Shown here: positions 26,806 to 28,523 of the stretch, one piece after another
Position numbering within the stretch: the first letter of the stretch is position 1
Layout of the letters: the number at the start of each line of letters is the position of its first letter
DNA from: an uncultured Pelagibacteraceae bacterium
GTDB lineage: Bacteria; Pseudomonadota; Alphaproteobacteria; Pelagibacterales; Pelagibacteraceae
Assembly: GCA_902597175.1 (NCBI GenBank)
Contig: CACJWN010000006.1
Location: 1 to 64,000, forward strand
DNA: 64,000 bases
Reading direction: 5' to 3'
Translations under genes and position numbers: made by a program
The notes under the pieces: model-generated
The model's database searches: none
The model's input: the letters and a program-made list of their open reading frames with translations, nothing else
Told to the model about the DNA's origin: nothing

Positions 26806-27875
26806 ATTTGTTTGCCCGCAATAAATTTTTGCCTTAAATTATCAATCAGCACAGTCGATCCGTTAAAATTATAATGCCAATAAGTCCAACCATTATAACT
26901 TTCTGCTCCCATTATTTTTGCTGCGATTTTATGTATTGATCCCTCTGTATCCTTATATTTTATACTTCCATCAGCCATTATTTTTGCATTAATCTTTTTC
27001 TTTTGATCAAACAAAGATGTTCCAGGTTTAATTATTCCTAATTCCACTAGTGAGCCAAAAGGTATTCTAGGTTTTGATTTATTATTTTCAATAGTATCTA
27101 GGTAGTCATCAGCTATTGTCTCGGTCTTTTTAATTCTTTCCTTAGCTGCAACGAAATATTTTTTATCTTTTTCAATACCATAATAATTTCTACCTAATTT
27201 TTTAGATACGACAGCAGTGGTTCCTGTACCTAAAAAAGGATCAAAAACAGTGTCACCTTTATTAGTAGTTGCCAATATAATTCTATGAAGTAGGGCTTCT
27301 GGCTTTTGCGTGGAATGTATTTTTTTTCCATTTTTCTTTAGTCTTTCTTTTCCATTACAAATTGGCAATGTCCAGTCCGACCTCATTTGCAAATCATCAT
27401 TTAAACATTTGAGAGATTGATAATTAAAAGTATATTTTGATTTTTTAGTCTTTGATGCCCAAATAAGTGTCTCGTGTGCATTAGTAAATCTTGTTCCCCT
27501 GAAATTAGGCATTGGATTATTTTTTCTCCAAATAACATCATTAAGCAACCAATAATCTAAATTTTGTAAATGATAGCCTAATCGAAAAATATTATGATAA
27601 GAACCTATTACCCAAATAGATCCATCATCCTTTAAAACTCTTTTGCATTCTGCTAACCAAGATTTACAAAATTCATCGTAATGTTTGAAACTATTAAATT
27701 GATCCCATTTATCATTAACACCATTTACTTTGCTAGAGTCCGGACGTGTTAATTTTTCACCAATTTGCATGTTGTAAGGTGGATCAGCAAAAATTAAATC
27801 AAAAGTTTTGTCTGGAATTTTTTTAAGTTCCTTTAAACAATCACCATTAATAATTTTGTTAGAAAATTTTAACAT
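26802..27875 (-). CDS. ccrM: CcrM-type adenine DNA methyltransferase (GANTC)
   Basis: The 357-residue beta-class N6-adenine methyltransferase has the catalytic motif DPPYN at 31-35. The SAM-binding FDPFLGTGTTA is at 211-221, followed by GRNYYGIEKD. The C-terminal 90 residues, with GIIKPGTSLFD and NGWTYWHY, match the extra domain that distinguishes CcrM. The length nearly equals that of the Caulobacter enzyme (358). It is a solitary methylase with no restriction gene nearby. In alphaproteobacteria CcrM methylates GANTC late in the cell cycle. Four GANTC sites sit just upstream (27882-27953). Confidence 0.94.
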   Translation of the reverse strand: MLKFSNKIINGDCLKELKKIPDKTFDLIFADPPYNMQIGEKLTRPDSSKVNGVNDKWDQFNSFKHYDEFCKSWLAECKRVLKDDGSIWVIGSYHNIFRLGYHLQNLDYWLLNDVIWRKNNPMPNFRGTRFTNAHETLIWASKTKKSKYTFNYQSLKCLNDDLQMRSDWTLPICNGKERLKKNGKKIHSTQKPEALLHRIILATTNKGDTVFDPFLGTGTTAVVSKKLGRNYYGIEKDKKYFVAAKERIKKTETIADDYLDTIENNKSKPRIPFGSLVELGIIKPGTSLFDQKKKINAKIMADGSIKYKDTEGSIHKIAAKIMGAESYNGWTYWHYNFNGSTVLIDNLRQKFIAGKQI

Positions 27876-27881
27876 TTTCTA

Positions 27882-27953
27882 GATTCAACTTCAAATTGAA
27901 TCAAGGGTCAAACAATTTTAGAAAAAAAATGAGTCTTTTTGTGTTTGAGATTC
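27882..27953 (-). promoter_or_regulatory. Cluster of four GANTC sites between rnhB and ccrM
   Basis: GATTC at 27882-27886, GAATC at 27898-27902, GAGTC at 27931-27935 and GATTC at 27949-27953 all lie in the 78-base gap upstream of ccrM. At this base composition about one GANTC per 360 bases is expected. Their position, in the leader or promoter of the enzyme that methylates them, suggests methylation-sensitive autoregulation, as known for ccrM of Caulobacter. Confidence 0.6.
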
Positions 27954-28523
27954 TTAACTCGACAATATCTTGTGTATCGGTTTAAAACCTTTTCTATGGT
28001 GTGAGGTTACACCAAATTTTTTTAATCCTTCAAAATGAGCTTTAGTGCCATATCCAAAATTTCTATCCCAGGCATAATTAGAAAATTTTTTAGATAATCT
28101 TATCATAAACTTATCTCGGTGAACTTTTGCAATAATTGAGGCTGCACTTATGACTTTAATTTTTTCATCTCCATTTATAATTGTTTTATAATTTTTTAGA
28201 CCCCTTGGAGCAAAATTCCCGTCTATTAAGGTTATATCTGGTCTTATTTCAAGCTTTTCAATTGCTCTCTTCATAGATAGTAAAGATGCTTGTAAAATGT
28301 TTAAATTTAAGATTTCTTCAACAGAGGCAATTCCCAGTGCGTAATAAGAATTTTTCTTAATATGCTCTGAAACTTCTTCTCTTTTATTAAATGATATTTT
28401 TTTTGAGTCCTTTAAAAGATTTAGGTTTACACTTTTTTTAAGCACAACAGCAGCAGAAACCACTGGACCTGCAAGGCAACCTCTACCTACTTCGTCTACA
28501 CCAGCTGTTATCAATTCTTTCAA
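27954..28523 (-). CDS. rnhB: Ribonuclease HII
   Basis: The 189-residue enzyme removes single ribonucleotides from DNA and RNA primers. The catalytic DEVGRGCLAGPVV (Asp-Glu) is at about 10-22, Asp in LIDGN is at about 98-102, and the late Asp is in HRDKFM. The start is TTG at 28523. It is the only possible start here, since the preceding in-frame codon is the TAA that ends the uracil-DNA glycosylase gene. The two genes are thus in the same frame, separated by one stop codon. ccrM follows 78 bases downstream on the same strand. Confidence 0.94.
   Translation of the reverse strand: MKELITAGVDEVGRGCLAGPVVSAAVVLKKSVNLNLLKDSKKISFNKREEVSEHIKKNSYYALGIASVEEILNLNILQASLLSMKRAIEKLEIRPDITLIDGNFAPRGLKNYKTIINGDEKIKVISAASIIAKVHRDKFMIRLSKKFSNYAWDRNFGYGTKAHFEGLKKFGVTSHHRKGFKPIHKILSS

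Follow-up and report, generated by a model that had tools for sequence, protein, structure and literature searches.

GANTC sites, an invariant inverted repeat and a predicted sigma70-type promoter upstream of ccrM in SAR11 bacteria

SAR11 bacteria are among the most abundant in the sea and possess few regulators. The window, by which we mean the whole 64,000-nucleotide stretch analyzed here, comes from an uncultured Pelagibacteraceae genome (labeled G000; 0.99 Mb in 19 contigs, 86% complete) and contains a ccrM gene preceded by rnhB (Table 1). The ccrM product scores 573 bits (E = 1.9e-172) against the CcrM model NF050803, whose cut-off of 830 bits is also not reached by Caulobacter vibrioides in our control set. 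It combines a Pfam N6_N4_Mtase domain with a C-terminal RAMA domain, and the named records that match it at 96% identity come from Pelagibacteraceae single cells, which places the genome in SAR11. All 110 SAR11 loci have rnhB upstream of ccrM, and so do 62 of the 68 loci compared at class level; in some of the remaining six, the locus ends before this position. We predict that the gap between the two genes is the ccrM promoter.

Table 1. Features of the ccrM locus and the GcrA homolog of the same genome; numbers of sites count back from the ccrM ATG
Feature	Position	Strand	Remarks
ccrM, GANTC adenine-N6 DNA methyltransferase, 357 aa	26802..27875	(-)	Profile and Pfam matches
rnhB, ribonuclease HII, upstream neighbor on the same strand as ccrM	27954..28523	(-)	NF000595, 219 bits (cut-off 167)
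rnhB-ccrM gap, 78 bp, predicted ccrM promoter	27876..27953	(-)	
GANTC site at -11 (GAATC on the ccrM strand; GATTC on +)	27882..27886	(-)	Overlaps the putative -10 and the repeat's right end
GANTC site at -27 (GATTC on the ccrM strand; GAATC on +)	27898..27902	(-)	3 nt behind TTGACC; forms the repeat's left end
GANTC site at -60 (GACTC on the ccrM strand; GAGTC on +)	27931..27935	(-)	
GANTC site at -78 (GAATC on the ccrM strand; GATTC on +)	27949..27953	(-)	Touches the rnhB stop codon
-35-like box TTGACC (-36 to -31 from the ATG)	27906..27911	(-)	TTGAC unchanged in 90 same-genus and 39 genus g4 loci
Putative -10 TTGAAT, 17 nt from TTGACC	27883..27888	(-)	Inferred from spacing only
19-bp inverted repeat ATTCAATTTGAAGTTGAAT, fixed letters ATTCAATTTnnnGTTGAAT	27883..27901	(-)	16/19 positions unchanged in 90 loci
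GcrA homolog	G000:C9:26311-26739		PF07750, 133 bits (cut-off 26.9)

A preliminary description of this stretch had reported four GANTC sites in 72 bases directly upstream of ccrM, and all four are present, each inside the gap. Six bases separate the nearest site from the ATG at 27873-27875, and the proximal part reads TTGACC-NNN-GATTC-AATTTNNNGTT-GAATC-(N6)-ATG on the ccrM strand. The accompanying expectation of about 0.2 sites per gap holds for base composition, as 178 sites per 64 kb in dinucleotide shuffles amount to 0.22 per 78 bp, but the local rate (101 sites in the window, 57% of the shuffled number) lowers it to about 0.12; the motif is avoided overall. The 72 bp at ccrM is the tightest span of four sites in the window, followed by a span of 200 bp that shares three of the same sites and by a separate one of 249 bp. 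We extended the count to 45% of this genome (the window plus 20 stretches, 445,535 bases in all), with gaps defined by open reading frames of at least 80 aa and ATG starts only. Here, the next-tightest span of four is 149 bp, and the ccrM gap is the densest of 249, with 51 GANTC/kb versus 2.0/kb for the others. Most other gaps of 40 to 200 bp lack the motif (89 of 101), 10 have one site, one has two, and one has three; the single gap with two sites holds tRNA-like sequence, as judged by eye. The second densest gap in this sample is a 126-bp gap upstream of a gene for a small CxxC protein, GFA-like by eye (L352 on G000:C13, 15927-16052). It has three GANTC sites within 28 bp, and TTGAC does not lie directly before them.

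The same imbalance is found among relatives. In the 80 of 110 SAR11 loci taken for this count, the ccrM gap holds 183 GANTC sites in 5,665 bases (32.3/kb), although the gene caller accepts GTG and TTG starts and trims some ccrM gaps, and 3 of the 80 scored zero. The 148 other gaps of these loci hold 68 sites in 18,587 bases (3.66/kb, with 1.94/kb overall), and none of the 129 other gaps of 50 to 150 bp has two or more. Intergenic over-representation of GANTC has been published (PMC3973325, PMC9516812), and the relatives' other gaps do exceed the overall rate, so that the ccrM cluster could be one draw from DNA that is enriched in GANTC between all SAR11 genes. Yet the ccrM gap stands another 9-fold (80 loci) to 25-fold (this genome) above other gaps, with its sites at fixed positions, and neither the relatives' loci nor the genome sample showed us another gap of comparable length that matches it in number of conserved sites, which makes general enrichment an extremely improbable explanation. 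Chance clustering is ruled out by the background counts together with the fixed site positions. The other intergenic regions sampled are thus not equally dense in GANTC and, in the genome sample, mostly have no site.

To describe conservation within the genus, we drew on the 136 of 169 same-genus genomes with a ccrM match, which include all 14 near-complete ones. The comparison covers 90 of the 136, taken mostly from the most similar ccrM downwards, with fragments and many less similar genes left out. The rnhB-ccrM gap measures 76 to 78 bp in 86 of the 90 loci, and sites recur at about -11, -27, -60, and -78. GANTC is intact in 82 loci at -11, 79 at -27, 46 at -60, and 59 at -78. All four sites are kept in 33 species, three in 27, two in 23, and one in 7, in a tally that takes in the four alignment positions only and scores the -60 site of L085 and L095 as lost because their GANTC lies about a base off those columns. 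Sites are therefore kept in this gap among relatives. We also counted changes by parsimony for each gap column on a ccrM codon tree, in which 51 fourfold degenerate ccrM sites average 17.2 changes (range, 6 to 33). Most letters of the -60 and -78 sites change within this neutral range, the A and T of the -78 site being slower (3 and 4 changes). Conservation of the cluster consequently stands for the two ccrM-proximal sites but not equally for the distal pair, and we reject a switch in which all four sites would count alike. Among intact copies, the central base is C in 41, A in 2, T in 2, and G in 1 at -60 and A in 51, T in 4, and G in 4 at -78.

The strictest constraint falls on TTGAC and the inverted repeat rather than on GANTC itself. 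Every one of the 90 same-genus loci carries the block TTGAC-N5-ATTCAATTT-N3-GTTGAAT, and TTGAC, ATTCAATTT, and GTTGAAT have undergone zero changes. The two proximal GANTC sites are a fixed ATTCAA-N7-TTGAAT repeat flanked by an outer G and an outer C. These observations raise the alternative that the repeat is an operator for a putative dimeric DNA-binding protein, with incidental GANTC ends and no role for methylation. It would account for the contrast between the 16 unchanged repeat positions and the 10 and 8 changes inferred for the outer G (-27) and outer C (-7), for the survival of the repeat in L042 and L098, which have lost both inner sites, and for the related TTCAA-N7-TTGAC of genus g4, which is kept almost unchanged although placed differently relative to the -10. 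The two species without inner sites also indicate that GANTC is not indispensable. However, 79 of the 90 loci retain the outer G and 82 the outer C, far above the expectation from fourfold sites of this AT-rich gene, where G or C is the commonest base at just 1 of 51 sites (in 33 of 90 loci), and this argues that the two letters are selected and not neutral. They are under selection that is weaker than that on the repeat, and they are sometimes lost. The recurrence of GANTC at the same promoter positions with a varying center at the class level, described below, likewise speaks against incidental ends, and we regard the operator without methylation as rather unlikely.

The repeat could instead work at the RNA level, by folding into a hairpin immediately ahead of the start codon and so controlling translation. 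The strand does fold with the repeat as a hairpin (z = -2.7), but the stem bases never change and so provide no compensatory pairs, a transcript from the -35 box used as drawn would begin at or near the ATG and exclude the hairpin, and the gap has no Rfam match up to E = 1. Control by such a hairpin is accordingly improbable. The one sub-threshold Rfam match, to ToxI, lies inside rnhB. A separate terminator-like hairpin, 7 pairs followed by a T run, lies antisense inside rnhB at 27997-28014 (+). Among known regulators, NtrX has the operator CAAN2-5TTG (PMC9223101), which shares with our repeat a CAA...TTG inversion at cell-cycle promoters. We rejected NtrX as the repeat-binding protein, as the spacing is 7 (CAA-N7-TTG) in all 90 loci and hence outside the NtrX range of 2 to 5.

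We searched for further copies of the repeat beyond ccrM. Exact ATTCAA-N7-TTGAAT occurs at one place in G000, at ccrM, and a reversed control pattern also occurs at one place. It is present in 33 of 41 genomes, several with a second place elsewhere, and the reversed control matches are of about the same order; in 13 genomes searched with two mismatches, total matches barely exceed the reversed control. We examined three recurring two-mismatch matches. The first, ATTCAATTTCA[CA]GTTGTAT, was seen in 10 of 13 genomes (L211, L208, L215, and L217 at 1501-1519). It covers the GTG start codon of a conserved hypothetical gene whose neighbors look acs/actP-like by eye, and it probably reflects coding constraint. 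Another sits inside a 266-codon open frame in G000. The third, ATTCACTTTTTAGTTGAA[CA], at G000:C5:47621 (L347 7621-7639; L216 1501-1519) and also in G149 and G151 (context read in G000 and G151), lies in conserved non-coding DNA between Fur-family-like and ABC-transporter substrate-binding-like genes (by eye), upstream of the latter. It could be a second operator of the same putative protein or an ordinary promoter, so that ccrM may not be the only gene with the putative operator. These searches neither establish a wider regulon nor reject one.

The cluster lies in a promoter-like region: TTGACC and a 17-nt spacer are accompanied by GANTC between and at the elements, the -27 site closely following TTGACC and the -11 site covering the provisional -10. 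TTGACC would make a good -35. The provisional -10, TTGAAT, has no A as its second base, and a scan for the consensus passed it over, seeing no textbook -10 in the window's genus. If correctly placed, it would give a nearly leaderless ccrM mRNA. We also looked at other genera of the family, using 20 loci chosen by hand (9 from genus g4) and 30 more g4 loci; from genera g5, g7, g9, and g12, which have more divergent ccrM genes, only L190 was taken in. The 39 g4 loci follow TTGAC-N3..4-GANTC-N6..7-GAGTCTA, with 37 loci keeping site 1 and 38 keeping site 2, and the center of site 1 is A in 24, C in 8, and G in 4 of the 36 loci with both sites. The g4 repeat TTCAA-N7-TTGAC is nearly unchanged and lies across the -35, a different place relative to the -10 than in the window's genus. 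As read from these predicted elements, the promoter arrangement is clearer in g4 than in the window's genus.

For the class as a whole, we drew 240 genomes, of which 199 match the CcrM model, a number that includes weak matches to other methyltransferases. The 68 loci analyzed are the 30 best-scoring and 38 hand-picked ones; several pairs share a genus and L190 belongs to the window's own family, so they are not 68 independent cases. Their start codons were estimated from homology, which blurs the count over 100 bp (none in 19 of 68), and we preferred the count over 250 bp. Within 250 bp upstream of ccrM, at least one GANTC is present in 63 of 68 loci and at least two in 59, with none in 5. 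TTGAC-N1..7-GANTC occurs in 45 of 68 loci versus 5 of 1,360 mononucleotide shuffles, which keep base composition only, and the first site lies 2 to 5 nt behind TTGAC. TTGAC-GANTC-GANTC occurs in 37 of 68 loci versus 0 of 1,360 shuffles; 31 loci are without the two-site pattern. The center of site 1 in the 37 loci is G in 13, A in 9, C in 9, and T in 6, the variation to be expected if a methylation target, and not a single fixed protein site, is being selected. Site 2 abuts a -10-like CAnnnT, whose A is present in 35 and whose T in 34 of the 37 loci; the spacer is 17 nt long in 33, and these predicted promoters fit the sigma70 hexamers better than those of the window's genus. Of the 45 loci with the one-site pattern, 40 have an additional GANTC no more than 34 nt ahead of TTGAC. 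In nine of these 45 promoters (within L124-L186), GANTC directly abuts TTGAC, as in GACTCTTGAC. Several have a CtrA-like TTAAC before an upstream GATTCAA or GATTCCA.

Named records give a similar picture. Among 22 picked from 80, TTGAC-GANTC-GANTC is found in Novosphingobium (L313, L318, and L331), Altererythrobacter (L308), a Rhodospirillaceae metagenome-assembled genome (L322), and the divergent Pelagibacteraceae record L316. GANTC is clustered without this pattern in, for example, Phenylobacterium haematophilum (L306) and Aestuariivirga (L314), the ccrM upstream regions of Filomicrobium and Methyloligella have a single site, and the SAR11-like L190, L296, and L312 show no GANTC cluster at ccrM. 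The L316 promoter reads TTGACCTC-GATTC-TATTTT-GAATC-ATATT; from this one record, the class form would go back to the SAR11 ancestor and would later have been altered in the window's genus. The two-site pattern matches in 21 of 41 genomes, and the matches that recur in one form are those at ccrM, by place or by sequence. The sole other match in G000 (C10:35935-35962) lies inside a TolR/ExbD-like coding sequence (by eye). The cluster is thus not specific to SAR11, and the view that something unusual was kept even in a streamlined genome falls away, as GANTC-rich ccrM promoters are common in the class. Our searches of open-access papers yielded no account of the class-wide promoter geometry or the SAR11 repeat, although Stephens et al. 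1995/1996 and Haakonsen et al. 2015 may already describe part of these.

GcrA, known to read methylated GANTC, is encoded in G000 as well as CcrM. PF07750 exceeds its cut-off in 46 of 61 same-genus genomes, including G000 and all 4 near-complete ones, and it was not found in the other 15, all of them less than 90% complete. The family also matches in Sulfolobus of the control set, so a match alone is no proof of GcrA function. The gcrA gene itself has one GANTC (at -181) in its upstream 200 bp in G000 (L333) and none in four relatives (L119-L122). GcrA recruits the sigma70 polymerase to methylated promoters (PMC7403470). In Caulobacter, GANTC between -35 and -10 accompanies activation at 40 to 60 min; the same study finds GANTC no farther than 50 bp away at only 31% of the cell-cycle start sites enriched for GcrA (PMC4287350). 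Few high-probability GcrA targets are reported among Candidatus Pelagibacter ubique orthologs (PMC7987155). An earlier count of GANTC in 500-bp windows upstream of cell-cycle genes could not derive methylation control (PMC2877005). For ccrM, one source considers methylation control "most probably" at work (PMC3973325), and a review describes two GANTC sites in the Caulobacter promoter and more expression once replication makes them hemimethylated (PMC10073500). Where they treat the ccrM promoter, papers on Sinorhizobium and Agrobacterium stress CtrA, not GANTC (PMC4433202, PMC7003649); in the main texts of these two and of PMC10754441, the regulator is CtrA or TipR, and the word GANTC is absent. 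In Pelagibacter, GANTC is reported to be methylated in a pattern that follows replication, with 99.86% of sites fully methylated in culture (PMC9516812), so that a site staying unmethylated would be hard to accommodate in that organism.

Fork hemimethylation, the biology of CcrM and GcrA, and the replication-following methylation of Pelagibacter GANTC make replication-coupled control the best reading of the locus. We consider it moderately probable that ccrM is controlled in this way via a GANTC-embedded sigma70-type promoter of old alphaproteobacterial design, of which the window's cluster is apparently the SAR11 form. In the old design, one GANTC would immediately follow the -35 box and another would coincide with the -10. 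A passing replication fork would leave these sites hemimethylated until CcrM acts, and RNA polymerase, presumably helped by the sigma70 cofactor GcrA, would meet the ccrM promoter in a replication-dependent state. Output of ccrM would then follow replication, and full methylation would damp it, if the direction of feedback is that reported for Caulobacter. In the window's genus, the two sites are the ends of the invariant repeat, so that a bound protein would probably share this DNA with CcrM. Such a putative protein presumably needs ATTCAA...TTGAAT more than it needs GANTC and sits on both sites. The usual completion of the repeat ends to GANTC suggests that methylation tunes the binding of this protein or of the polymerase. 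More tentatively, and with greater doubt, ATTCAATTTnnnGTTGAAT may be a ccrM-specific operator at whose GANTC-completed ends CcrM methylation and a candidate regulator compete, a replication-sensing feedback that would stand in for CtrA. The methylation-state switch of the preliminary description remains a hypothesis with partial support: the cluster exceeds background, is conserved, lies in promoter-like DNA, and shares its genome with a gcrA gene. The wording of a feature kept against streamlining does not stand, strong conservation is limited to the two proximal sites, and the elements free of any change are the repeat and TTGAC rather than GANTC.

Comparison with known systems shows partial likeness. 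The Caulobacter ccrM promoter, compared through the review cited above (PMC10073500) and not by sequence, also has GANTC sites, but Caulobacter ccrM is activated by CtrA, whereas no ctrA ortholog was reported for Pelagibacter (PMC2877005), and the invariant inverted repeat of the window's genus sets its promoter apart. The locus resembles the GcrA-dependent methylated sigma70 promoters of Caulobacter in having GANTC between -35 and -10 and in a genome that encodes both GcrA and CcrM; in the window's genus, the second site begins 11 nt after the first ends, in contrast to 4 to 7 nt in the class, and the -10 is non-canonical. The gcrA promoter of Agrobacterium tumefaciens, with 6 GANTC sites in 250 bp and repression of gcrA by CcrM (PMC11514494), is similar as a GANTC-rich region upstream of a CcrM/GcrA circuit gene. 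Unlike there, the cluster in this SAR11 genome lies at ccrM, and gcrA has almost no GANTC upstream.

The promoter may let ccrM sense fresh replication of its own DNA. The idea that ccrM senses its own methylation becomes a testable promoter architecture, common to much of the class and with positions fixed nearly to the base. If SAR11 ccrM does have a replication-sensing promoter, it would amount to a cell-cycle clock of very small size. A further lead is the strictly conserved repeat, which hints at a candidate regulator open to biochemical isolation. One further element lies in the gap: CACWA, at 27939-27943 (-64 to -68 from the ccrM ATG), precedes the -60 GANTC by 3 nt. The window's genus keeps it nearly unchanged, and genus g4 has a similar upstream ACACAA (L110-L118 and L223-L252). 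One guess is that it represents a partial DnaA-box-like CACA.
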